A program made the translations under genes and the position numbers. A stretch of 33,503 nt of DNA, taken from a virus. Under the pieces are notes generated by a model. The model did not search any database. It was not told the DNA's origin and saw only the letters and a list, made by a program, of their open reading frames with translations. This document shows positions 12,606-33,239 of this stretch, one piece after another. Where the stretch lies: IMG/VR virus record IMGVR_UViG_3300022934_000085, positions 1 through 33,503 of that record. One strand, written 5' to 3'. How positions within the stretch are numbered: position 1 is the first letter of the stretch; each line of letters opens with the position of its first letter.

Positions 12606-13415
12606 ATGAAAAGGTTGATATATCAAGTTTACACTGGTAAAAAATCTAGGCTGTATGATTACTGTACAGCCTCTGTTAAATTATATGCTGAAGAAATTAA
12701 TAAAACTGAAAAACCTCAAAATCGTGTTGACTATATAGTCCAAACAATTCCAAAAATGATGATTAAACCAGACGTATTTGCTACAAATCGTAGTAAAGAG
12801 TCATATGAAAAATACGGTGGATTTCTACCAATATATGAAAAAGAAAATGCTTTTGATTACTGGGATAAATACGATCAAATTTGTATCATTGATGCAGATA
12901 TTTGGATAAGGCCAGGATCACCTAATATATTTGATGAACTAACTCCTGTATCTGATTTTGCTGGTGTTGTAGAAAGATCCGCTCCTATTTTGCCTTGGTA
13001 TAAACAAAAACTTTCTGGATACACAAGAATGCAATACAGTAATCTTAAAGATGTTGATTGGAAATGGAATGATGCTGGTGGTCATTTTTACAATATGGGT
13101 TTAATGTTATTAGATAGAAATATTAAAAAATATCTTAATGGCCAAACTGGAAAGCAATTTATTGAAAGACCTGAATTTAAGAAATTTGTAGATGGTTTAG
13201 GTGCATGGAAATGGAGTACTGATCAAACTCTTTTAAATTATTGGGTGAAGAAAGAAAACATGATTCAGAAAGAATTAAGCTGGAAATACAATGCATTATT
13301 TACTGCTATTCCTGATGACAAAATTAGAGAAGCATATTTTGTGCATTTCTTTCTTAAAGACAAATTACCAAATAGTGGTGAAAACGTTGAACAATTAATG
13401 GAGAAAGTGATATGA
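12606..13415 (+). CDS. GT-A-type glycosyltransferase (GT8-like)
   Basis: 269 residues. The DxD metal/nucleotide-sugar motif is DAD (Asp96-Ala-Asp98) in ICIIDADIWI, followed by GGHFYNMGLMLLD, the acceptor-loop NxG pattern of GT8 enzymes, STDQTLLNYW and WKYNALF. It should transfer a sugar from a nucleotide donor, with unknown acceptor. It is the first gene of the glycan island, preceded by SD AAAGGA, and overlaps the next gene by 4 bases. Confidence 0.8.
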   Translation: MKRLIYQVYTGKKSRLYDYCTASVKLYAEEINKTEKPQNRVDYIVQTIPKMMIKPDVFATNRSKESYEKYGGFLPIYEKENAFDYWDKYDQICIIDADIWIRPGSPNIFDELTPVSDFAGVVERSAPILPWYKQKLSGYTRMQYSNLKDVDWKWNDAGGHFYNMGLMLLDRNIKKYLNGQTGKQFIERPEFKKFVDGLGAWKWSTDQTLLNYWVKKENMIQKELSWKYNALFTAIPDDKIREAYFVHFFLKDKLPNSGENVEQLMEKVI

Positions 13416-13786
13416 GTTGGAAAGATCCTAATTTTGAACCTGCTAAATCTTTTACGATAGATATTAGTATCGCTGAATACATTGATAGATACTCTATATT
13501 ATTAATAAAAAAAGAAAAAGGCTTGGATGTAGATAGAGAATTAAATCAGTATGAAAGTCAGGATCTTACTCATGATGGATTCGATCATTACTTAGGAATT
13601 ATGAGAGCAATTAATGAAGAGCTTTGGGATTTAGAAGATCGTAAAAGAAAAGGCGTGGAAAGATATAGTAAAGAAGAAGCTGATACAGCTTTCCTAATTA
13701 CTCAAATTAATGATTTAAGACACGAAACAAAAAAACGTATTGATGTTTATTTTGGTAGTGCATTCACAGAAAAGAAAAGTCATTGA
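13412..13786 (+). CDS. DUF6165-like protein
   Basis: 124 residues. The order IDRYSILLIKKEKG, then ELNQYES, INEELWDLEDRKRKG, TQINDLRHETKKRID and a closing GSAFTEKKSH matches the DUF6165 pattern that I remember from bacterial surface-polysaccharide loci. Function unknown; helical. Its presence supports a glycan-synthesis reading of this island. ATGA overlap with the previous gene. Confidence 0.75.
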   Translation: MSWKDPNFEPAKSFTIDISIAEYIDRYSILLIKKEKGLDVDRELNQYESQDLTHDGFDHYLGIMRAINEELWDLEDRKRKGVERYSKEEADTAFLITQINDLRHETKKRIDVYFGSAFTEKKSH

Positions 13787-14553
13787 AACATATAGCATTA
13801 AGATCAAAAAGCGTAAGAAGTGGTGATAGACCTTACACTACACCTGGTCTAGGTGATAGAGTTCACAGTGCTATGATAGCATATCAATACGGAAAAGCAC
13901 ACAACTCTTCAGTTACAATTCATATCACTGATGATAAATGGAGTATTGCAGGTGGCGTACCTTCTGCTAAAAAGAAAAAATCTTGGATAGAAATATTAGC
14001 TTTATTTCCTAGTGATTCATTATATTTAGAACCACATCCAGTTGAAAATTTAACTGAAGTCGAATGGATTAAATATTTAAAATCTAAAGGACATAATGCA
14101 TACATATATCATTATGAAGATACAATTCATATGCATCCTAATGAAACACGTGTTGGTATTGAAATGTCTCAGTACATAAAACAGCTACCTGAATTAGAAC
14201 CAATAATTAACAATACGTGGTTACCTGACGAATACATCACTGTTCAATGGGATTCTACAGATCCTAAAAGAACACTATCGCAAGAAGCAAGAAAGAAAAT
14301 ACATGATAAGTATGGTGTTATTCCACTATATGTTGGCGGAGAAGGTAAAGGATTGTTAAAGACGTCATTACCTCATATTGGTTTTGCCATAAAAAACGCA
14401 AAATTTCATGTTGGAAGTGATTCAGGCATGATGCATGTAGCACAATTATATAAAAAGTATGAGGACATACATATATATGATACAGATGATTCATATAAAT
14501 CTCATCACTTAGTAAGAGCAATTAATAACGGAAGTAAATATTTTAAGGTATAA
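13783..14553 (+). CDS. GT9-like (heptosyltransferase-fold) glycosyltransferase
   Basis: 256 residues, TTG start overlapping the previous stop (TTGA). An early GLGDRVHSAMIAYQYGKAH resembles the GT9 N-terminal GDxL...L loop. The C-terminal part has PLYVGGEGKG and ...FAIKNAKFHVGSDSGMMHVAQLY, the characteristic DSGxMH segment of ADP-heptose:LPS heptosyltransferases. It is shorter than a full GT9 enzyme (about 330 residues). Donor and acceptor unknown. Confidence 0.75.
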   Translation: MKHIALRSKSVRSGDRPYTTPGLGDRVHSAMIAYQYGKAHNSSVTIHITDDKWSIAGGVPSAKKKKSWIEILALFPSDSLYLEPHPVENLTEVEWIKYLKSKGHNAYIYHYEDTIHMHPNETRVGIEMSQYIKQLPELEPIINNTWLPDEYITVQWDSTDPKRTLSQEARKKIHDKYGVIPLYVGGEGKGLLKTSLPHIGFAIKNAKFHVGSDSGMMHVAQLYKKYEDIHIYDTDDSYKSHHLVRAINNGSKYFKV

Positions 14554-14558
14554 CTATC

Positions 14559-15155
14559 ATGATGGCAACTCACACAAATAAAGATTCTCAAAATATAATG
14601 CATCTAATAAAGCCTGATACGGTTGGTGCAGAAATTGGAGTTTGGTTTGGTAACACTTCAGCACAATTCCAAAAAAAAGGTTTAAAAAAATTTTACATGG
14701 TAGATTCATATTCCGTAGAACCATACAAAGAAAATAGTGAGATGTCATTTCAAGAATACCTTGCTAAATATGCTAAAGTAACTGGAGAAATAGCACCAGC
14801 TGGTTTTGCAAAATATTATGATAGAGTGTATGCAGAAGTAAAATCCAGATTTAAAACATTTGAAGAAGTTGAAATATGTCGTATGTCTTCTGATGAATGG
14901 TTTGAAAAATATAGCGATGTAGAACTTGATTGGATATATGTCGATGGAGATCATTCATATGAAGGATGTCTTAAAGATTTAGAAAATGCTATAAAAGTTG
15001 TAAAACGAGGTGGATTAATACTTGGTGATGATTACGGTTGGCCTGATGCTAGATGGCAAAAACCTGGTGTCACAAAGGCAGTTAACGAGTTCATAAATAA
15101 ACATGAATTAAAAATATTCAAACACGGTCAAACACAATACGAGATAAGAATATGA
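14559..15155 (+). CDS. SAM-dependent methyltransferase (Methyltransf_24-like)
   Basis: 198 residues. The class I SAM motif GAEIGVWFGNTS (residues 23-34), acidic strand YMVDSY, DWIYVDGDHSYEG and VKRGGLILGDDYG are as in the Methyltransf_24 family, whose members often modify sugars in glycan loci. Start at 14559 or 14562 (tandem ATG). It overlaps the RuBisCO-like gene by 4 bases, so both are translated together. Confidence 0.85.
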   Translation: MMATHTNKDSQNIMHLIKPDTVGAEIGVWFGNTSAQFQKKGLKKFYMVDSYSVEPYKENSEMSFQEYLAKYAKVTGEIAPAGFAKYYDRVYAEVKSRFKTFEEVEICRMSSDEWFEKYSDVELDWIYVDGDHSYEGCLKDLENAIKVVKRGGLILGDDYGWPDARWQKPGVTKAVNEFINKHELKIFKHGQTQYEIRI

Positions 15156-16243
15156 AAAAATACACAGTCACTTACGAAGTAGATGGTCCCGATATTCCTA
15201 AGATAGCTCATGAGATAGCTATTGGCCAAAGTATCGGAAATCCTAATATTAGATCAGAAATTGAAAATGCATCTAATGTAAAAGAATATATTGCAGAAGT
15301 TAAGGACATTCAAGGAAAGATTGTTAGGATTGATTTTCCGATAAGAGCGTTTGATTGGCCAAATATAAATCAATTAATGTGTATTATTATGGGTGGCCAT
15401 ACTGATATTTTAGGTGTAGATAGATGTAGAGTAATAGACATAGATATACCTATTAAAACTTTAGAACCTGTTTTAGGTATGTCCGGTTGGAAAAAAAGGC
15501 TCGAAGCAGAAAATAGACCATTGTTTGGGGCAATTGTTAAACCAAAATCTGGTCTTAATAAAGAACAATTGTTGTCATTAGTAAAAGATATGATGTACGG
15601 TGGTGCTGATTTTATTAAAGAAGATGAAATCATGGCAAATAATTCATATCTACCTCTTGAAGAAAGAGTTGATGCTATTGAACATCTTAAGAGTATATCA
15701 GGATGGAAAGGTTTTTATGCTTATTGCATTAATGCAGATCCTTTTGAATTAGTTGACAATATTAAAACAGTATGGCACGATTCCAGTACAAGAGGAAACA
15801 TTGGTGGCGTACATATTAATTTTTGGTCTGGACTAGGTGCTTATACCTCTTCTAGAAAATACAGTTTAGCAACGCACTATCAAAGATCTGGAATAAGAAT
15901 ACTTACTGACCCTAGTAACAAATATTCTTTATCTTGGCCAGTTCTTGTAAAATTAGGTTGCATGGCAGGTATCGACAGTATGCATGTTGGTATGTTAGGT
16001 GGTTACTATCCTGAAGGAGAGAGTGAAGAAGAAACTCTTAAAGCAATAGAAATATGTAATGAATATGATGTTATACCATCATTAAGTTGTGGTATGAATC
16101 CAGTTCTTGCTAGAGAAATTAGAGAGCGTATCGGCAATAATTTCATGGCATCAGTTGGTGGTTGGTTACACACCGGCGATGGAACAGCCGGCAACACATT
16201 ATATCATAAAGTAAAAGAAATGAGTGAGGCAGTTGCAAAATGA
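15152..16243 (+). CDS. RuBisCO-like protein (form IV type)
   Basis: 363 residues. The RuBisCO large-subunit barrel is recognisable: FGAIVKPKSGL (Lys130, Lys132, equivalent to K175/K177), GGADFIKEDE (Lys156, Asp158, Glu159, equivalent to carbamylated K201 and metal ligands D203/E204), GGVHIN (His221), MHVGMLGG (His278), SLSCGM (Ser312) and SVGGW (Gly336-Gly337, phosphate site). The loop-6 lysine (K334 in spinach) is absent, since HVGMLGGYYPEGE has none, so carboxylation is unlikely. RuBisCO-like proteins enolise or isomerise sugar-phosphate-like substrates. Length is below the usual 400-plus. It sits coupled between a methyltransferase and a sugar nucleotidyltransferase, suggesting a role in making an unusual sugar. 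Confidence 0.88.
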   Translation: MKKYTVTYEVDGPDIPKIAHEIAIGQSIGNPNIRSEIENASNVKEYIAEVKDIQGKIVRIDFPIRAFDWPNINQLMCIIMGGHTDILGVDRCRVIDIDIPIKTLEPVLGMSGWKKRLEAENRPLFGAIVKPKSGLNKEQLLSLVKDMMYGGADFIKEDEIMANNSYLPLEERVDAIEHLKSISGWKGFYAYCINADPFELVDNIKTVWHDSSTRGNIGGVHINFWSGLGAYTSSRKYSLATHYQRSGIRILTDPSNKYSLSWPVLVKLGCMAGIDSMHVGMLGGYYPEGESEEETLKAIEICNEYDVIPSLSCGMNPVLAREIRERIGNNFMASVGGWLHTGDGTAGNTLYHKVKEMSEAVAK

Positions 16244-16971
16244 AATTAATATTACCTATGGCTGGAAACGGTCAAAGATTTTTTGATGCTGGATATGATT
16301 TACCAAAACCTTTAATTGATATTAAAGGCAAACCTATGTTTGCACGAGTTATTGAAAACTTATGGGTGAATAATGCAGAATTGACTTGTATAGTTAGACA
16401 AGACCATGTTAATGATTATGAAATTGATAAACGTATTCTAGAACATTATCCTGATGCTAATATTATAATCATACCGGGTACAACCGAAGGTGCAGCTTGT
16501 ACTGTAAGGCTAGCTACGAATGTATTAGGCGGTGAACCTATGATAGTTGCAAATTGTGATCAATTAATGCGATGGGATCCTAAAGAGTTTTATGAAAAAA
16601 TAGACACTAATTTATATCCAGGTGGTTTAATACCAGTGTTTACACCAAATCATAACGAACCAAAACACAGTTACTGTGAGGTCGATAAATATGGTAATTT
16701 ATTACAACTTAAAGAAAAAGAAATCATAAGCGATATTGCAACAGTTGGTGTTTATTACTTTGGTGATGAAAGTAAATGGATTAAAGCACATGAAAAACAA
16801 ATGGATGCAAATGATAGAACAAATAATGAATTTTATTTAGCACCTACATATAATTACTTAGAAGAAAATGTTGGAATACATCGTATAGATGAAATGATTG
16901 GTATGGGAACACCAGAAGAGTTAAACGAATTTAAAAATAGTATTTGGTGGGAACAGATTGAGAGTTTATAA
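16240..16971 (+). CDS. sugar-phosphate nucleotidyltransferase
   Basis: 243 residues. The N-terminal signature LILPMAGNGQRF with DLPKPLIDIKGKPM is the nucleotide-binding loop and Lys of glucose-1-phosphate thymidylyl/uridylyl-type transferases. It is followed by GTTEGAACTVRLA and the metal Asp in IVANCDQLM. It would charge a sugar phosphate with NTP to make the donor used by nearby glycosyltransferases. Coupled by a 4-base overlap to the RuBisCO-like gene, so its product may be the next pathway step (inference). Confidence 0.88.
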   Translation: MKLILPMAGNGQRFFDAGYDLPKPLIDIKGKPMFARVIENLWVNNAELTCIVRQDHVNDYEIDKRILEHYPDANIIIIPGTTEGAACTVRLATNVLGGEPMIVANCDQLMRWDPKEFYEKIDTNLYPGGLIPVFTPNHNEPKHSYCEVDKYGNLLQLKEKEIISDIATVGVYYFGDESKWIKAHEKQMDANDRTNNEFYLAPTYNYLEENVGIHRIDEMIGMGTPEELNEFKNSIWWEQIESL

Positions 16972-17702
16972 TGAAAATTGCTATTTGTGTATCAGGTCTT
17001 ATTAGAGACAAACATAAAAGAAATATTGGCTCGGTAAAAAAAGCATTTCCAGATGCAGATATTTTTTATTCAACGTGGGAAGCTTATGAAGATGATACGA
17101 CAAGAAGTTATAACTGCAAATATTATCCTGAGCCACAAATGCATTACAACCCATGGCATGAATGCGTAACAGACAATCCTCATCCAAAATATCATGCTTA
17201 CAAAAAAGATTTTGTAAATAAAACCGGTCAATCCAGACAAGGTAAACTTCTTAACGCCACAAAACAGATTATAGCTCATGCTTATCAGGTTGCCGATTTA
17301 CCTGAAGAGTATGACATGATTGTAAGAACTCGATATGATACTATTGTAAGTGATAAAGTAGATTTCAATAATTATTTAAATATGGCTAATGAAACGAGCT
17401 GTGCAGTTGGATTTTCAATACGTGGCGGTAGATGGATTTATTTAGATAAATTTCAAGATATTGAACATGTTTATATTACTGAAACAACAGATCAAGCTTG
17501 GAGTAGAGATTGGGCATGGTGGTTAAATGATAATTTAATTATACATCCAAGAAAAATATTTGATACTGAAAACGTTCATAAACTACATGAAGAAAAGAAA
17601 CTTTGGCCAGCAGAATACGGTTGGTACCAAGTGTTAAGTAAAGATGATAATCATCACTGTGTATATGGTGGTGCAGCTTTGGATAGATTTGTTCGTGCTT
17701 GA
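16971..17702 (+). CDS. putative glycosyltransferase-like protein
   Basis: 243 residues. N-terminal IAICVSGLIRD, then ADIFYSTWEAY, YDMIVRTRYDTIV and a C-terminal GWYQVLSKDDNHHCVYGG. This layout (SGxxR, D-x-F-x-S-T-W, R-x-R-x-D) is seen in a poorly characterised group of GT-A-like proteins from capsule and phage glycan loci. There is no classical DxD. One-base overlap with the nucleotidyltransferase. Confidence 0.65.
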   Translation: MKIAICVSGLIRDKHKRNIGSVKKAFPDADIFYSTWEAYEDDTTRSYNCKYYPEPQMHYNPWHECVTDNPHPKYHAYKKDFVNKTGQSRQGKLLNATKQIIAHAYQVADLPEEYDMIVRTRYDTIVSDKVDFNNYLNMANETSCAVGFSIRGGRWIYLDKFQDIEHVYITETTDQAWSRDWAWWLNDNLIIHPRKIFDTENVHKLHEEKKLWPAEYGWYQVLSKDDNHHCVYGGAALDRFVRA

Positions 17703-18120
17703 TATTTTATTTAAAAGATATAAATCAAATAGAGAACAGTACTCTAATTTTTACGAAAAAGAATTATTTCAGTATCGCCATAAACCAATAAATCTATTAC
17801 AAGTTGGAGTCGAGAGTAGCATACCAGTGTGGCATAAATTTTTAGAAAGATCAAACATATATTGTATCGATGAATTTGACAGAAGAGAACCAAATAAATA
17901 TGATTACCTAAAAGAGAAAAGAATATTTTGGTCTAGATGTGATACAAGTGACGAAAAAAGTATAAAAGAAATTATGAAAAATGTATGGAATAAACCAAGG
18001 TTTGATGTAATAATAGACAGCGTTAATAATTTTGCAAACTCTCGTTATGAATACTTAACAAGATACTGCATTGGAAAATATTATATAGAAGATGGTGACG
18101 AGGTAAGGATAGTCAAATGA
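17695..18120 (+). CDS. degenerate SAM-methyltransferase-like protein
   Basis: 141 residues from a GTG at 17695 that overlaps the upstream stop by 8 bases; an ATG at 17644 lies well inside the upstream gene. The body reads INLLQVGVESSIPVWHKFL, IYCIDEFD, RCDTSD and FDVIIDSVNN, the order of a Methyltransf_23/24 Rossmann fold. The glycine-rich SAM loop (normally E-x-G-x-x-x-G) is replaced by QVGVESS, so SAM binding may be lost. It could be a non-catalytic partner of the methyltransferase at 14559. Confidence 0.6.
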   Translation: MLDILFKRYKSNREQYSNFYEKELFQYRHKPINLLQVGVESSIPVWHKFLERSNIYCIDEFDRREPNKYDYLKEKRIFWSRCDTSDEKSIKEIMKNVWNKPRFDVIIDSVNNFANSRYEYLTRYCIGKYYIEDGDEVRIVK

Positions 18121-18815
18121 AAGCATTCGCAATAGTAGTACCAGGCAATAAGACATCAATGGCTGGATTTTCTGAACTCCAAGATAGCTATGATAAGTAC
18201 GGTCATAAAGATGGTTTAGAAATGCATGAAGCAATAGAACTTCATAAAGTAGAAGGATATTGCGGTGGAAATGGTTTAATATGGAAATATCCGTGGGAAG
18301 GTAAAGAAACAGATATAAAAAGTGGATTAATTAAATCTGCTTATCCTACTGCTGATAGAAGAAAACGTATGTCATGTTTTCTTAGCCATTGGTATCTTTG
18401 GCATAAATGTAAACATCTCAATGAAACAATATTAGTTTTAGAACATGATTCTAGACTTATAAAAAAATTACCAGCAGACAGTACTTTCGAAAGAGCACCG
18501 TATGATATCATTGGTATAAATGATCCATCAATGGCAACTCGAAAATCAAAACTATATCATGATATGATTTTAGAAAGAGAAGAGTTTTTTCAACCGGTGC
18601 CTAGAATAGATGAATTCAACGTGCCTCAAGGTTTAGCAGGAAACTCAGCATATGTTATTAAACCAGAAGGTGCTAAACAAATGATCGAGTTAACACAAGA
18701 ACATGGTATGTGGCCAAATGATGCTTTAATGTGTTATCAACTTGTGCCAAAACTCGGTGTAACGCGTAACTTCTATACGAGGATACAAGGATTGAGGTCA
18801 ACAACAACACTATGA
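18117..18815 (+). CDS. GT25-like glycosyltransferase
   Basis: 232 residues. The GT25 (LPS galactosyltransferase) order is visible: RMSCFLSHWYLWHKC, then TILVLEHDS in place of the usual LEDD metal motif, and GNSAYVIKPEGAKQMIE with WPNDALM near the end. GT25 enzymes add sugars to LPS core or collagen-type acceptors. ATGA overlaps on both sides. The next gene is a second member of the same family. Confidence 0.75.
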   Translation: MKAFAIVVPGNKTSMAGFSELQDSYDKYGHKDGLEMHEAIELHKVEGYCGGNGLIWKYPWEGKETDIKSGLIKSAYPTADRRKRMSCFLSHWYLWHKCKHLNETILVLEHDSRLIKKLPADSTFERAPYDIIGINDPSMATRKSKLYHDMILEREEFFQPVPRIDEFNVPQGLAGNSAYVIKPEGAKQMIELTQEHGMWPNDALMCYQLVPKLGVTRNFYTRIQGLRSTTTL

Positions 18816-19453
18816 AAATGTATGTAATAACAATAATGGATAATGAGAGATCAGTTCAAGTTGCTGATAGATGTATCAAAAGTGGAAAAGTTTTTGGTTA
18901 TAATATTAAAAAGCATAAAGCATACACTCCACGAAATTGTGATGTGTATGAAGAATTAAAAAAGCTTAAATACCCACAAAAATTATTTCATGAAAAATAC
19001 AGCAGGCCAGAAAATTGTATTGCAGGATTTTTAAGTCATCATAGTTTATGGCAAAAGTGTGTAAGATCGAAGGAACCGATAGTAATATTTGAGCACGACG
19101 CAGTGCTGGTTGGAGACATACCACAAATGATGATGTTTGATATATTAAACTTAGGTAAACCATCATACGGTAAGTTTAATACGCCATCATACATAGGTTA
19201 TGGATCATTAGTTTCAAAACCATATTTCCCTGGTGCACACGCATACAGATTAACACCAAAGGGTGCACAACAATTGATAGATGAATGCGCATTTAGTGCA
19301 GGTCCAACGGATATATACATACATTCAAGTAAGTTTACTTTAGGTGAATATTATCCTTGGCCAGTAGAGGCAAGAGATAGTTTTACTACAATACAACAAA
19401 AAGCAGGTTGCTACGCAAAACATAATTATGGTGAAACTTATGAAATCATATGA
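18812..19453 (+). CDS. second GT25-like glycosyltransferase
   Basis: 213 residues, same layout as its neighbour: CIAGFLSHHSLWQKC, PIVIFEHDAVLV, PGAHAYRLTPKGAQQLIDE, GPTDIYIH. The two are probably diverged tandem paralogues. Both carry EHD rather than EDD at the metal motif. Start ATG overlaps the preceding stop by 4 bases. Confidence 0.72.
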   Translation: MKMYVITIMDNERSVQVADRCIKSGKVFGYNIKKHKAYTPRNCDVYEELKKLKYPQKLFHEKYSRPENCIAGFLSHHSLWQKCVRSKEPIVIFEHDAVLVGDIPQMMMFDILNLGKPSYGKFNTPSYIGYGSLVSKPYFPGAHAYRLTPKGAQQLIDECAFSAGPTDIYIHSSKFTLGEYYPWPVEARDSFTTIQQKAGCYAKHNYGETYEII

Positions 19454-20081
19454 TGAAGCTTTCTTAACAGGGTGTAATAGTGGCCATGAATGGATGCTAC
19501 CTTGGTTTTTTAAGAACTTTAAAAAGCATTGTAAAAAACCATTAATATTTTCTGATTTTGGTTTAAGCGAATTAGGCCTTAAAATTGTACGTGAAAATTG
19601 TCATGCAGTTATGAACCTAGGCAATGTTGAAGAACGCGGTTGGTTTAGAAAACCATTATCAATGTGGAAGTCTCCTTCAAAGAAAACAGTATGGCTTGAC
19701 CTCGATTGCGAAGTGAAAGATAATATTGATGGTATATTTGATTTATTAGAGCCAGATAAGTTAGCAATGGTGGAAGATAAGCCTTGGTCTTTAAGAAGAG
19801 GTCATAAGTGGCATAACTCAGGCGTTGTAGGTTTTATAGATAAACCTATAATATTATCACTGTGGTGCGGTGCAGTTAGAAAGAATCATCAACAGGGTAT
19901 AGGTGATCAAGAAATATTAGATGAAATGTTGAGTCCTATCACAAAGATTAGCTATATAAAAGATCTACCAAATGAATATAATGTTATGAGATTACAATTA
20001 GAAGATGGTTATAAAGGTAACATAAAAATCATGCATTGGACAGGAGAAAAAGGCAAGTACATTATTAGGAGGCAAATGTGA
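19440..20081 (+). CDS. GT-A glycosyltransferase-like protein
   Basis: 213 residues from the ATG at 19440; a second ATG at 19428 would add four residues (MVKL). Features: FLTGCNSGHEWMLPWFFKNF, the DxD-like VWLDLDCEV, HNSGVVGF, GIGDQEILDEM and IMHWTGEKGK, an order typical of GT8-like enzymes. The donor sugar is unknown. It overlaps the preceding stop by 14 bases. Confidence 0.72.
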   Translation: MKSYDEAFLTGCNSGHEWMLPWFFKNFKKHCKKPLIFSDFGLSELGLKIVRENCHAVMNLGNVEERGWFRKPLSMWKSPSKKTVWLDLDCEVKDNIDGIFDLLEPDKLAMVEDKPWSLRRGHKWHNSGVVGFIDKPIILSLWCGAVRKNHQQGIGDQEILDEMLSPITKISYIKDLPNEYNVMRLQLEDGYKGNIKIMHWTGEKGKYIIRRQM

Positions 20082-20698
20082 GCAAAGTAGTACACATAGT
20101 TGGTAATGGCGATCAAGCCAGTTTATTTCATAAAGAAAAAAGAGTTGGAATGAAGCTTACTTGTAATATTCCACCTTGGCCAGTTAATGGTGTTTATGGA
20201 ACTATCATGGTTGATTTTAAAATGATGCGTGCACTGCATGAAGGTTCATTAAAAATTCCTGGTGATTGGATATTAGGTATGAGACCTAAGATTTGGATGG
20301 ATAAACAACCTACATTCTATGTTAAGCATGCACATCAAGTAAAAGAATTCTACACAGTTCTACCGAAGTACGTTGCAAACTATACAGATTTTAACTGTGG
20401 TCATATGGCAGTTCATTATGCAGCAAATAAAGTTAAAGCTGACGAAATTCATATGTATGGATTTGATTCTATATTTGATTTTAATCTTAGAAGTTGTTCT
20501 GATTTATATCTTAATTCAGATAGAGGTAATATGAACACAAATAGACTTGCAAATAATTGGCGACCAGTATGGGAAAATATGTTTAAAGAATTTCCTAATA
20601 CTAAATTTGTATTACATCACACACATGATGCCATCAAAGTAAGAGTTCAAAATAATGTAGATGTGATAACATATGATACGAAAGCTAAAATGGCTTAG
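20078..20698 (+). CDS. DUF115/Maf-like protein (conserved phage)
   Basis: 206 residues, GTG start with a strong SD (GGAGG). A Rossmann-like start VVHIVGNGDQAS, then NCGHMAVHYAANKVKADEIHMYGFDS, resembles the GxxAxxxAxxxG...I.L.G.D core of DUF115/MptE-like proteins, a group that includes flagellin-glycosylation Maf proteins. Related proteins are common in marine phages as I recall. Last gene of the glycan island. Confidence 0.65.
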   Translation: MSKVVHIVGNGDQASLFHKEKRVGMKLTCNIPPWPVNGVYGTIMVDFKMMRALHEGSLKIPGDWILGMRPKIWMDKQPTFYVKHAHQVKEFYTVLPKYVANYTDFNCGHMAVHYAANKVKADEIHMYGFDSIFDFNLRSCSDLYLNSDRGNMNTNRLANNWRPVWENMFKEFPNTKFVLHHTHDAIKVRVQNNVDVITYDTKAKMA

Positions 20699-25461: not shown

Positions 25462-25995
25462 ATGGCTAAAAATTTAGGAGATGAACTTGAAAATATGGAA
25501 GAGGGTATAGAAAACCTTAAAAATAAAGAGTTTCGTATCCTTGGTTTTAAAGTAAGTTTTATGTCAATATCTGCTCTTCTTGCAGTTATTGGTAGTGTTC
25601 TTGGTGCATTGTATGGTGGTTTTCTAATGTATCAAAAAGTAGAACAGGCTATAGAATTTGTAGAACAACAAGAAGAATACGAAGCAAAAATCAATGCATA
25701 TGACAAACGTATGGAAATCATGGAATCCAAAATGGAAGACACTGTAGAATATACACGTGATATCAAAGGTGGATTACGTGATGACATACTGCGCATTGAA
25801 CAACAAGCAGATAGAACTGAAGACATGGTTCGTAAAAGTGTAGATGATGTACGTAATATGATAACTGATGCTGAGAGTAGATTCGAAACTAAGAGAGATA
25901 GTTTAAGAGAATCAGTAAGTCGTGACACTAAAGAGTTAGAAGATAGACTTATGAAAAAAATACAAAGAGCATTAGACAATCCATTAGCAAATTAG
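25462..25995 (+). CDS. membrane-anchored coiled-coil protein
   Basis: 177 residues. Acidic N-terminal helix, a membrane segment at about 33-56 (SISALLAVIGSVLGALYGGF), then more than 100 residues of charged coiled coil (ESKMEDTVEYTRDIKGGLRDD and RDTKELEDRLMKKIQ). It probably spans the inner membrane with the coil in the periplasm or cytoplasm. SD GGAGAGG. Spanin-like or envelope-binding roles are possible, but not shown. Confidence 0.8.
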   Translation: MAKNLGDELENMEEGIENLKNKEFRILGFKVSFMSISALLAVIGSVLGALYGGFLMYQKVEQAIEFVEQQEEYEAKINAYDKRMEIMESKMEDTVEYTRDIKGGLRDDILRIEQQADRTEDMVRKSVDDVRNMITDAESRFETKRDSLRESVSRDTKELEDRLMKKIQRALDNPLAN

Positions 25996-26003
25996 TATAA
26001 ATA
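25996..26003 (+). promoter_or_regulatory. T4-type late promoter before riboswitch
   Basis: TATAAATA immediately after the upstream stop codon. Transcription would start near 26009, a few bases before the P1 stem of the glutamine aptamer, so the riboswitch leader forms the first part of the late mRNA. Confidence 0.7.
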
Positions 26004-26013
26004 GTAATACATT

Positions 26014-26066
26014 AAACGTTCACCCGAAAGGGCGGAAGTAGGCAATCGCTGAAGGAACGCACCTAA
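26014..26066 (+). promoter_or_regulatory. glutamine riboswitch (glnA / Downstream-peptide RNA)
   Basis: The aptamer consensus is visible: CGTTC (26017-26021) pairs with GAACG (26055-26059) as P1. CCC-GAAA-GGG (26023-26032) forms P2. The conserved CGGAAGTAGG (26033-26042) and GAAGGAACGCACC (26051-26063) segments match glnA RNA as I know it. TAGG (26039-26042) can pair with CCTA (26062-26065) as a pseudoknot. TCACCC (26020-26025) can alternatively pair with GGGTGA (26081-26086), which includes part of the Shine-Dalgarno. Glutamine binding would then free the SD, giving an ON switch. Confidence 0.9.
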
Positions 26067-26089
26067 CCATTAACTAGGGAGGGTGACTA

Positions 26090-26191
26090 ATGACTTACAG
26101 ACCATTTTCGTGGAAGAGGTTTTGTAAAGCACGTGATCGTGCTAGAGTTCATAGAATTCTAAGCTATCGCTTGCTGCATAAAGCTGCTTAA
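26090..26191 (+). CDS. 33-residue basic peptide under glutamine riboswitch
   Basis: ATG at 26090 follows SD GGGAGGG (26077-26083); TAA at 26189-26191. Sequence starts MTYRPFSWKRFCKARDRARV. Of 33 residues, 10 are Lys or Arg and only one is acidic. In cyanobacteria the same riboswitch class controls small basic glutamine-synthetase inactivating factors (IF17), so this may be a phage-made inhibitor or modulator of host glutamine synthetase. That function is inferred from riboswitch context and charge only; no homology was established. Confidence 0.8.
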   Translation: MTYRPFSWKRFCKARDRARVHRILSYRLLHKAA

Positions 26192-27296: not shown

Positions 27297-27305
27297 AAAT
27301 AATCC

Positions 27306-27334
27306 TTTACAAACGGCAAATTATGTGGTATAAT
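27306..27334 (+). promoter_or_regulatory. sigma70-like promoter of tmRNA
   Basis: TTTACA at 27306-27311, 17-bp spacer, TGG then TATAAT at 27329-27334. The expected start is near 27341, upstream of the tmRNA acceptor piece. Confidence 0.82.
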
Positions 27335-27340
27335 ATATAC

Positions 27341-27606
27341 TATATAACGATGAAGCAAAGTGAAAAGTTCACTGGACTCGGGGGCGGTACCCGACAGCTC
27401 CACCAAAAACATTCGATTATCGCGAGTAGTTTTGATGGGGCTGAAATAGGATCGACAGGTACGTAATAGCGATGTGGAGTTATCCGGATGTAAGCTCGGT
27501 TAATGCGAACAAAACTATAAATGCAAACGATAATTTTGCACCTCAAGAGTTAGCGCAAGCCGCTTAATTCTTATGAGCCCGGAGGAGCTTGGAAACAGAA
27601 TCCTCC
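27341..27606 (+). ncRNA. ssrA: circularly permuted (two-piece) tmRNA
   Basis: The acceptor piece comes first: T-arm TCGGG/CCCGA (27378-27394, seven-base loop GGCGGTA), then CAGCTCC, A and encoded CCA ending at 27405. A 31-base internal segment (27406-27436) flanked by AAAAC/GTTTT leads to the coding piece, which starts GGGGCTGAAATAGGATCGACAGG at 27437. GGGGCTG pairs over all 7 bp (one G-T) with CAGCTCC. The tag frame from GCA at 27523 reads ANDNFAPQELAQAA, with stop TAA at 27565-27567. A hairpin GGAGGA/TCCTCC lies at 27581-27606. The order is that of alphaproteobacterial tmRNA. Mature ends and the P2 helix were not resolved. Confidence 0.93.
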
Positions 27607-27624
27607 ACCTTTAAGGAGAAACAC

Positions 27625-28001: not shown

Positions 28002-28537
28002 ACAGAGAAACTCTTAAACAATATGCTAAACTAAGAAAATTACCTAAGTTTATAAAGTTAGGTGAGATCTCTGAGGAGGTATGTAGAAACTTTATAGATG
28101 TAGCCGAACCTTTGACAATTACAAACGATAGAAATATAAAAATGAGAAAAGAGTTTGGATTAGTTTATGAAGATTCAAAAAGTCCTCTTGGTAAAGTATA
28201 CGATTCAAGACACATAGATGATTTGGACGTGTCTTCTATAAGATGCATAAATAATTTTAATGAAAAGTTCAACTGGAGATTTGGTAAATTAAAGCCACAC
28301 TCAGAAATACCTGAACATTTAGATCCTGCAAGTTCTTACAGATTTTTGATAATATTATCAGGCTATTGTTACTTTATTTCAGAAAACGATTCAATAGAGT
28401 TAGTCGCTGGTGACGTATATTATGTCAATTCTGCGTATAAACATAAAGTAATAAATGGCGAATATGAAAGATTAGCACTTTTAGGTGAGATGAAAATAAA
28501 TGACAAAAACACTGAATTATTACGAACAAGAACCTGA
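27998..28537 (+). CDS. double-stranded beta-helix oxygenase-like protein (Asp/Asn hydroxylase type)
   Basis: 179 residues, GTG start overlapping the previous stop by 4 bases. The core has LKPHSEIPEHLDPASSYRF (HxD), LAGDVYYV-type strand (LVAGDVYYVN), then YKHKVINGEYERLALLGE with the distal His and Arg. HxD...H plus Arg is the Fe(II)/2-oxoglutarate site of aspartyl/asparaginyl hydroxylase-type proteins. The substrate is unknown. It is followed by a radical SAM gene in a 38-base overlap. Confidence 0.75.
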   Translation: MNRETLKQYAKLRKLPKFIKLGEISEEVCRNFIDVAEPLTITNDRNIKMRKEFGLVYEDSKSPLGKVYDSRHIDDLDVSSIRCINNFNEKFNWRFGKLKPHSEIPEHLDPASSYRFLIILSGYCYFISENDSIELVAGDVYYVNSAYKHKVINGEYERLALLGEMKINDKNTELLRTRT

Positions 28538-29393
28538 AAATAACACATTCATTGAAGTTGTTGCAGATGTCACTCATAGATGTAATATGAGCTGCAAAAA
28601 CTGTTATATACCAAATAGAGATATTCCCGACATGGATATCGATAAACTCATTGATTGTGTAAGTAAATTTCCAAAAAGAACTATGATAAGAATTATAGGT
28701 GCTGAACCTACGATGAGAAATGACTTACCTGAAATTGTCACAAGAGTAAAAAATGCAGGGCATAAGGTATGTTTACTTACAAACGGATTAAGGCTCGCAA
28801 AACAACATTATTGTCAACAGTTAAAAGATGCCGGATTAAGACATGTATACATCAGTATGAATGGAGTAGATGTTGATGATTGGTATGAAGAGATTGATGA
28901 ATTAAGATGCGCAACTAAAAAAGTTGAAGCGCTTCAAAATGCTAAAAAAATGAATTGGGTAATTGACATTGGTTGCATATTAGTTAAAGGACTTAATGAT
29001 GATGCGCCAACACGTATGATTAATCTTCTTAAAGATAACAATATCGAAAATTGTGTTATAAGATTTAAAAACGTAGGTCAAATTGGTAGATATATTGACG
29101 GGCCAAATCATAATATGGAATCTCTTACACAATTAGTTGCAGATCAGTTTAATTTATCTCTCGATCATATTGAAAAAAAGCACATACCAATTGAAAAAGA
29201 AAGCATACTATTTCCGGTGGATCCAAATGCTAAATTAGTTTACAAAAGTGGAATATGGATTAAACTTACAAATTGGGATTCTAAAGGTAAATACTCTCCA
29301 CTTTTAGATAGTAAAAGAAGAGGACGAATCACTCAAGATTTTAAAGTTGCACCATTTTTCGAGCATGTAAAGTTAAATGAATTTCAGTACTAG
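28500..29393 (+). CDS. radical SAM enzyme
   Basis: 297 residues. The [4Fe-4S]/SAM motif CNMSCKNC (Cys28, Cys32, Cys35), IGAEPTMRNDL (the GGE-type SAM loop) and VCLLTNG, VYISMNG strands fit a radical SAM barrel. The C-terminal part (about 200-297) has no Cys cluster, so no SPASM or twitch domain is fused. It overlaps the oxygenase-like gene by 38 bases. It could modify a peptide, nucleotide or sugar; context does not say which. Confidence 0.9.
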   Translation: MTKTLNYYEQEPENNTFIEVVADVTHRCNMSCKNCYIPNRDIPDMDIDKLIDCVSKFPKRTMIRIIGAEPTMRNDLPEIVTRVKNAGHKVCLLTNGLRLAKQHYCQQLKDAGLRHVYISMNGVDVDDWYEEIDELRCATKKVEALQNAKKMNWVIDIGCILVKGLNDDAPTRMINLLKDNNIENCVIRFKNVGQIGRYIDGPNHNMESLTQLVADQFNLSLDHIEKKHIPIEKESILFPVDPNAKLVYKSGIWIKLTNWDSKGKYSPLLDSKRRGRITQDFKVAPFFEHVKLNEFQY

Positions 29394-32211: not shown

Positions 32212-32526
32212 ATGAAACTATACCCAAAGTGCCACCCGTATTGGGAAATTGACGGCGAAGTAATCGAAAATAAAAAAATTCAAGGTACTGCATACACAGC
32301 CGAAGGTTATCTTTTACCGTGCTGTTGGTGTGATATGCATGATCCGCGTGGAAAATCACAATTTGAAGTGTTTGGTTTCTATGAACCAGAGTTAAAAGTA
32401 TCAAATGTTGATGATATCGAGCAAGAAATACTGAGATCTCCGGAATGGTATCACTTTCACGAGACTCTTTTGCAAAATCCACATCTTGCACCAGATGCAT
32501 GTAAAAGAAAATGTGGTCAAAAATGA
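32212..32526 (+). CDS. stand-alone SPASM-like Cys-rich protein
   Basis: 104 residues from the ATG at 32212. EGYLLPCCWCD (Cys37, Cys38, Cys40), then EILRSPEWYHFHETLL, and APDACKRKCGQK (Cys97, Cys101) follow the order seen in auxiliary Fe-S (SPASM) domains: G-x-x-PCC..., a spacer, and C-x-x-x-C near the end. Here it is a separate protein, overlapping the next radical SAM gene by 4 bases, as if the core and auxiliary cluster were split into two subunits. Confidence 0.7.
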   Translation: MKLYPKCHPYWEIDGEVIENKKIQGTAYTAEGYLLPCCWCDMHDPRGKSQFEVFGFYEPELKVSNVDDIEQEILRSPEWYHFHETLLQNPHLAPDACKRKCGQK

Positions 32527-33239
32527 ATCAACTCTATAGAGACTATATACGTACACAAGTTCAGCTCAGTGTCAATACGGACTTCTCGAGTAAATGTCTA
32601 TTACAATGTGTATACTGCATGAGACAAGCATGGTCACAAGACAAAGGCGCAACTGGAAGAGATAAAGTCAAAATCTCAGGTGACATGCCGTTCGAAGACT
32701 TCAAAAAGATAGGAAAAACATTTCCACAGATGCACCTCTGTGGACAAATATCCGACCCAATATACCACCCTCACCTTCTACAATACCTTCAATACGCCTC
32801 AGATAACAATATTCATATACAAATACATACAAACGGTACAGGTAAGAGTAATCAATATTGGAAAGACATATACTCAATAAAGAAAAGAATGAGATTCGTA
32901 TTCGGTATAGATGGTATAGATCAAAAGACTGTAAATCTACACAGAGTAGGACAAAACTTTCATCAATCATTTAAGGCGATGCTCCTTGGATCTCAATCTC
33001 ACCATAAAATTACTTGGCAATTCATACCATTTCAACATAACGAACACCAAATAAAACGTGCAAAAGATATCGCAAGTAAGTATAATATACAATTTCTTAT
33101 ACTTAAATCTAATAGAACAGAAGATCGAAACATCTTTCTACATAATAAGAAGACTCGCTTAGACTGGATACAACTACCAAATGATCCAAATCTCTCTGTT
33201 AGTCGCGGTAATCCACTATCAATAAAAGAGTATATGTAA
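32523..33239 (+). CDS. radical SAM enzyme
   Basis: 238 residues from the ATG at 32523. CLLQCVYC (Cys25, Cys29, Cys32) is the SAM [4Fe-4S] motif, followed by HLCGQISDPIYHPHLLQYLQ (SAM-contact loop), IQIHTNGT and VFGIDGID strands. The barrel is short and has no C-terminal Cys cluster, which would be supplied by the coupled SPASM-like protein. Substrate unknown. Confidence 0.87.
   Translation: MNQLYRDYIRTQVQLSVNTDFSSKCLLQCVYCMRQAWSQDKGATGRDKVKISGDMPFEDFKKIGKTFPQMHLCGQISDPIYHPHLLQYLQYASDNNIHIQIHTNGTGKSNQYWKDIYSIKKRMRFVFGIDGIDQKTVNLHRVGQNFHQSFKAMLLGSQSHHKITWQFIPFQHNEHQIKRAKDIASKYNIQFLILKSNRTEDRNIFLHNKKTRLDWIQLPNDPNLSVSRGNPLSIKEYM

Follow-up and report, generated by a model that had tools for sequence, protein, structure and literature searches.

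The locus lies in the virus record IMGVR_UViG_3300022934_000085, in a 33.5 kb stretch of DNA (33,503 nucleotides, 33.7% G+C), the whole of which was analysed and is referred to here as the window. T4-type replication genes are present in the window, namely those for UvsX and a DnaB-type helicase. By these two proteins, the closest annotated record is Phage C48C1 (78% and 69% identity, respectively), which is classed in Kyanoviridae. On the + strand, the stop codon of an upstream open reading frame (ORF; 25993-25995) is followed by the element TATAAATA, a glutamine riboswitch aptamer, a Shine-Dalgarno (SD) sequence and a 33-codon ORF. The aptamer starts 11 nt past the late promoter element and ends 26 nt ahead of the 33-codon ORF. 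As the ORFs 3' of the peptide gene lie on the opposite strand, the peptide is the sole nearby candidate target of the switch in the window. The features of the locus were as follows:

25996-26003, + strand: T4-type late promoter element TATAAATA, identified by sequence; the motif recurs in relatives
26015-26063, + strand: glutamine riboswitch aptamer, type 1 (glnA, RF01739), identified by cmscan and also by a search of the whole record
26017-26021, + strand: 5' strand of the P1 stem, CGUUC, pairing with 26055-26059 (RF01739 alignment)
26055-26059, + strand: 3' strand of the P1 stem, GAACG (RF01739 alignment)
26060-26064, + strand: anti-Shine-Dalgarno strand CACCU, the first two bases of which (C-A) are conserved aptamer positions (covariation, folding)
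26077-26082, + strand: Shine-Dalgarno sequence GGGAGG of the peptide gene, 7 nt 5' of the ATG
26081-26085, + strand: sequestered strand GGGUG, overlapping the 3' end of the SD and pairing with 26060-26064
26090-26191 (ATG to stop), + strand: basic peptide of 33 aa, MTYRPFSWKRFCKARDRARVHRILSYRLLHKAA (homologues, pN/pS, AlphaFold2)

The cmscan analysis against all 4227 Rfam families matched the aptamer to RF01739 with a score of 56.4 bits (gathering score 35; E 5e-10), and the match was full length, covering model positions 1-53 of 53. The conserved type 1 glutamine core, CGGAAGUA plus GAAGGAACGCA, is exact in the window. Judged by its sequence, 26015-26063 is a type 1 glutamine aptamer, as stated in the original prediction, which had described a complete glnA-type aptamer. 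The same prediction had named two covariance models for checking; glnA gave the match above, whereas Downstream-peptide (type 2, RF01704) gave no match in the window at the gathering threshold. Tandem glutamine aptamers ahead of a single short ORF were observed in the viral contigs L013, L017, L029, L049, L097, L099 and L102.

The element TATAAATA starts straight after the upstream stop codon. It is read here as a late promoter on the pattern of T4-like phages in general, and the transcript presumably starts near 26009, as predicted from T4 late promoter geometry. Among the matches listed, TAAATA was present within 35 nt 5' of the aptamer in 76 of 119 viral units (shuffles: mean 6.1, maximum 12), and the full TATAAATA in 30 of 119 (shuffle mean 0.7). 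The spacing of the motif in relatives is mostly 6-10 nt ahead of the aptamer's GTTCA. TAAATA was found with 23 of 125 cellular aptamers. The claim of a late promoter directly 5' of the aptamer is supported by the enrichment of the motif in relatives, and from the promoter type the peptide is probably expressed late in infection.

The peptide gene was analysed by scanning IMG/VR with the degenerate DNA of the first nine residues of the peptide as the query, with no aptamer required. This identified 42 peptide loci, all of which (42/42) carry the aptamer directly upstream, while the sequence 3' of the peptide gene varies among the 42 contigs. Across 29 distinct 81-nt coding sequences, pN was 0.128 and pS 0.383, giving a pN/pS of 0.33. 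An alignment of 32 proteins contains 11 invariant columns, with R4, R15 and R27 among the invariant residues. AlphaFold2, run with the homologue alignment, predicted a single helix at residues 9-32 with a mean pLDDT of 80.6. From this conservation, the 33-codon ORF is considered to be a real gene. Both the short Arg/Lys-rich peptide proposed after the aptamer and its conservation behind the same riboswitch in related viruses, which had been suggested as a check, were confirmed by these results. A search of annotated phage records with the 33-aa peptide (tblastn) or the locus (blastn) showed no relatives.

To describe the association in viral contigs generally, an ORF-independent sample was taken by scanning IMG/VR with the aptamer pattern alone, and the counts given are among the matches listed; later scans, with the SD and ATG in the pattern, were left out of the frequency statement. 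A short ORF lies behind the aptamer in all 111 of the proximal aptamers listed with at least 250 nt downstream. It has an SD and an ATG in 109 of these 111, and is 70 aa or shorter in 108 of those. The two exceptions (L043 and L107) have a GTG-start ORF, that of L107 being 78 aa in length and the start of L043 being related. All of the 103 distinct ATG peptides among the matches listed are net positive, with a median charge of +7. At random positions of the same contigs, 3.7% passed the ORF test, 66% were positive and the median was +2. With the later scans included, the viral peptides form more than 12 groups at the BLAST level, two of which (A3 and A4) are probably related (hhalign probability 94.7). 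DUF4278 (YRG) proteins, which also lie behind the switch in cyanobacteria, account for some of the viral peptides, and the majority have no Pfam family. The arrangement of a glutamine switch ahead of a short basic protein is near-exceptionless in the related viruses sampled.

The pairing between the leader and the SD was analysed with a swap test, in which the bases 3' of P1, from the C-A onwards, were compared with the 16 nt immediately 5' of the ATG and the partners were swapped between units. The sample comprised 114 aptamer-selected units with an ATG ORF, the window included, among the matches listed. A helix of 5 bp or more built on the C-A was present in 84 of the 114 listed units, compared with a mean of 48.5 and a maximum of 58 after swapping (0 of 2000 swaps as high), a comparison in which ancestry is partly corrected. 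When each crude peptide group was represented by a single unit, the helix was present in 37 of 54 listed units (swap mean 20.4, maximum 28). The co-changing pair classes were CACCT/GGGTG, CACTT/GAGTG, CACTTT/GAAGTG, CATCTTT/GGAGATG and CAATCTTT/GGAGATTG. The remaining 30 of the 114 listed units lack a C-A helix of at least 5 bp, and some of these (those with AAAGGAGC leaders) apparently rely on a different pairing.

The original prediction had instead paired TCACCC (26020-26025) with GGGTGA (26081-26086). These strands are present in the sequence, but their helix is not favoured in the ligand-free ensemble of the window leader (probability 0.25, versus 0.74 for the C-A helix), and as a conserved switch helix it was rejected, being found in 9 of the 114 listed units versus 7.0 by swapping. 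The window leader is also compatible with further folds. The C-A lies within the RF01739 consensus in the Rfam alignment, and in the crystal structure of the aptamer with glutamine bound it is reportedly engaged in pairing and stacking. The sharing of the C-A by both states implies glutamine-ON control. Thus, the ON control originally proposed was supported, but through CACCT (26060-26064) and GGGTG (26081-26085) rather than through the TCACCC helix. A translational ON arrangement in the phage leader is supported by these sequence comparisons, and the direction of switching, which we infer for the phage, would match that reported for gifB.

The switch was also observed in cellular genomes, although a 2018 review describes glutamine riboswitches as restricted to cyanobacteria (PMC6316151). 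In SAR86 (L180, L186, L190, L193, L218, L225, L232 and L237), a glutamine riboswitch with a GCATCT...GGAGATG leader lies ahead of a DUF4177-like protein of ~71 aa. This protein showed a sub-threshold match to NCBIfam Sp36 of 27.1 bits (cut-off 50; E 2.9e-6). In marine alphaproteobacteria (L141 and the order of G306), glutamine riboswitches were present in 49/100 genomes, with as many as 8 in a genome, often in tandem and ahead of amtB- and glnA-like genes in the loci that were read. Targets resembling gltB were observed in gammaproteobacteria, for example at L191 and L202.

The window also contains, at 27302-27609 on the + strand, a two-piece (permuted) tmRNA gene of alphaproteobacterial type, which was matched by cmscan and missed by ARAGORN. 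Compared with phage records, this tmRNA gave short partial matches only. When the host was sought by tmRNA similarity, the best match was partial (82% over ~113 nt) and in one genome, of the order of G313, at most a tentative lead. The order of the SAR11 MAG G001, searched through 297 genomes without a positive control, yielded no member of the peptide family. An RF01739-type aptamer was present in 2 of these 297 genomes versus the 49 of 100 in the order of G306, and the riboswitches of candidate hosts are therefore no guide to the host of this phage.

Elsewhere in the window, a RuBisCO-like protein of 363 aa is encoded at 15152-16243 on the + strand (Pfam RuBisCO_large, E 1.5e-22). Its best PDB match was the archaeal RuBisCO 3kdo, and by eye the catalytic motif GGADFIKEDE is retained. 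No match was found among 50,697 annotated phage records, and relatives were present in 165 IMG/VR stretches, several of which are contigs that also bear the riboswitch peptide. The gene is flanked by a long series of sugar- or glycosyltransferase-like ORFs, judged by eye (12606-20698, + strand), a run that suggests, from the kinds of ORFs it holds, modification of a surface polysaccharide. A radical-SAM protein is encoded at 28500-29393 on the + strand (Pfam E 7.7e-17), and a second radical-SAM-like ORF, judged by eye, at 32511-33239 on the + strand.

The aptamer was further analysed in two cultured phages. Melnitz infects OM43, and in Melnitz-2 (MZ577096.1, L278, 2574-2672) a basic ORF of 32 aa lies directly 3' of the aptamer. 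The order is the aptamer, GCACTTAACCTTAATGGGGAGAGTGTT and the ATG of MTLYQQWCYLKAQKEYRRRQKILMYFRIRLKG (translated by eye), and the ORF has its own SD. This ORF is unannotated; in its place the record shows an ORF on the minus strand, and the annotated tmRNA feature spans the aptamer. The Melnitz switch has been published as a control of tmRNA, and its authors speculated on the timing of lysis by glutamine (PMC9004378). In Mosig, which infects SAR11, the aptamer (92197-92250, minus strand) is followed by the annotated Mosig_00116, a 'hypothetical' protein of 51 aa (MDLLKEIRALKKEKQKEISAKAQLRKRSKESLARPRAKKNLFTDDPRMQGI) that, by eye, belongs to the family of L012, L098, L101 and L114.

Comparisons of the window peptide with Pfam, NCBIfam, PHROGs and PDB sequences showed no homology, the one PDB row having an E of 0.74 over nine residues. 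There was no match to PF14105 (DUF4278), nor any other Pfam match up to E 10. The original prediction had likened the peptide to the cyanobacterial factors that inactivate glutamine synthetase (GS). An IF7 profile was built from homologues in three cyanobacterial genomes, which matched the IF7 query with E values as low as 2e-22. The profile-profile score of 8.1 was equalled or beaten by 26 of 60 column shuffles; homology to IF7/IF17 was rejected, and membership of the peptide in these factors is not supported. Steering of host nitrogen metabolism by the phage through the switch, as proposed, thus remains an analogy. The peptide weakly resembles the WxxYC peptides (A4), scoring above 60 of 60 shuffles, with an hhalign probability of only 14%. 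Two MAG contigs (L142 and L184) contain members of A4; their aptamers are in tandem and the neighbouring ORFs look cellular by eye. One member of the NGNGTSGY family was found in a SAR11 MAG (L158).

Several other explanations of the locus were considered. The riboswitch could control the two-piece tmRNA (ssrA), with the small ORF being incidental; a tmRNA is indeed located near the aptamer in the window, Melnitz, L032, L265 and the close relatives of the latter two. In the window, however, the peptide and the tmRNA are ~1.1 kb apart, with ORFs of the opposite strand between them, and the Melnitz aptamer sits after the tmRNA sequence, directly ahead of the 32-aa ORF, as the Mosig aptamer is ahead of the annotated 51-aa ORF. 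Most peptide homologues have no adjoining tmRNA, and a platform covarying with the SD implies the translation of an ORF, which leaves control of the tmRNA hardly credible. A switch of the opposite sign, in which the ligand lowers translation, is also unlikely. In genomes of marine bacteria, the same aptamer lies ahead of amtB, glnA and gltB, and since these are nitrogen-assimilation genes, repression by glutamine would be expected there. Those leaders differ, however, in being longer and usually tandem, with GCATGCAAAGTTAT...GCATGA, whereas the phage anti-SD helix is built on the aptamer's C-A, which the ligand should break. The small-protein cases in cyanobacteria are also ON (PMC6316151).

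As for the product, the peptide could be a viral inactivating factor of host GS, made at high glutamine to turn GS off. The aptamer and ON logic are the same as those of gifB, and the inactivating factors are small, basic and arginine-dependent (PMC6316151), much as the phage peptide is basic with R4, R15 and R27 invariant. Yet the dissimilarity of the IF7 profiles described above, the many unrelated peptide families behind the switch, for which a single common target is not obvious, and the specificity of GS recognition by the inactivating factors even among cyanobacteria (PMC6316151) make this role doubtful. Alternatively, the peptide may serve the phage itself, by nucleic-acid binding, packaging or modulation of lysis or assembly, with glutamine as a timer of the cell state. 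Strongly basic helical peptides behind a late promoter would suit this role, as would families that differ between phages while charge and size stay constant, and lysis timing by glutamine is what the Melnitz authors speculated on (PMC9004378). Some of the phage peptide families, however, also lie behind the switch in cellular contigs (L142, L184 and L158), so that a purely viral role is insufficient, although some of these could be prophage-derived or mis-binned; this role is possible, on the less probable side. Given the parallels in A4, the NGNGTSGY family, SAR86/Sp36 and the sP36 of Methanosarcina mazei, the favoured idea for the peptide is a small regulator directed at nitrogen metabolism, by analogy and with modest probability, and a phage-serving basic peptide comes close behind.

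The aptamer, the promoter motif, the covarying anti-SD helix, the coding conservation and the exclusive association were computed directly. Jointly, they are best explained by a one-gene late unit with glutamine-ON translation of a basic peptide acting on a host nitrogen protein, an explanation that we consider somewhat probable. The late promoter would start the leader almost at the aptamer. When no glutamine is bound, CACCU (the C-A and the next three bases) would pair with GGGUG over the 3' part of the SD, resulting in poor translation. Glutamine binding would draw the C-A into the ligand-stabilised tertiary fold, the base of the helix would be lost and the ribosome binding site would be freed. 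The product would be a strongly basic, helical peptide of 33 aa, one of at least 12 short basic families behind the switch in marine phages. Like the small proteins under glutamine switches in cyanobacteria, it may act when glutamine is abundant by binding a host protein involved in nitrogen assimilation or signalling. More broadly, unrelated short basic proteins may have come repeatedly to lie behind one glutamine-ON late riboswitch in marine phages of several host groups, as metabolite-gated regulators whose binding to nitrogen proteins of the host (GS, PII or the ammonium transporter) is confined to glutamine-rich cells; this generalisation is tentative.

The aptamer, the ON logic, the short proteins behind the cyanobacterial switch and the presence of the switch in cyanophages, Mosig and Melnitz are already known. 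As far as the open-access literature was searched, the phage rule, the peptide families, the correction for Melnitz, the C-A platform that covaries in phage leaders and the link to the late promoter are new. The comparison answers what phage glutamine riboswitches control: in practically all cases sampled, a short basic protein. The controlled ORFs are often missed in annotation, including that of the cultured OM43 phage Melnitz. As Mosig (on HTCC1062) and Melnitz (on H5P1) are in culture, both the ligand control and the host target of the peptide are directly testable. Should nitrogen assimilation prove to be the target of the peptides, viruses of the ocean would read the nitrogen state of the host via RNA and answer with small protein effectors.

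Among known systems, glutamine binding to the type 1 aptamer of cyanobacteria increases production of IF17, a small inhibitor of GS (PMC6316151). The gifB/IF17 unit of Synechocystis resembles the window in its aptamer family and its small basic protein product. It differs in being controlled by NtcA rather than by a phage late promoter, in an ON direction that is reported (PMC6316151) where that of the window leader is inferred, and in IF7/IF17 being unrelated to the peptide. Marine picocyanobacteria have type 2 (RF01704) switches, and type 1 switches ahead of DUF4278 proteins (PMC2864571, PMC6316151). Like the phage units, these comprise short ORFs, mostly without assigned function, behind a glutamine-sensing leader, and DUF4278 (YRG) proteins are also present in some phage units; unlike them, the window has a type 1 aptamer only and a peptide with no DUF4278 match. 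In Methanosarcina mazei, sP36 is reported to inhibit AmtB1 on nitrogen upshift (PMC10714827). This system is archaeal and no sequence relation of sP36 to the peptide was found; the likeness is one of concept only, that of a small protein targeting nitrogen uptake (AmtB1, GlnK1) once the nitrogen supply becomes sufficient. The ORFs of Melnitz and Mosig, whose hosts are streamlined marine bacteria, belong to other peptide families than that of the window, but these phages share with it the same aptamer, a T4-like phage background, a two-piece tmRNA in the genome and a short basic ORF downstream.
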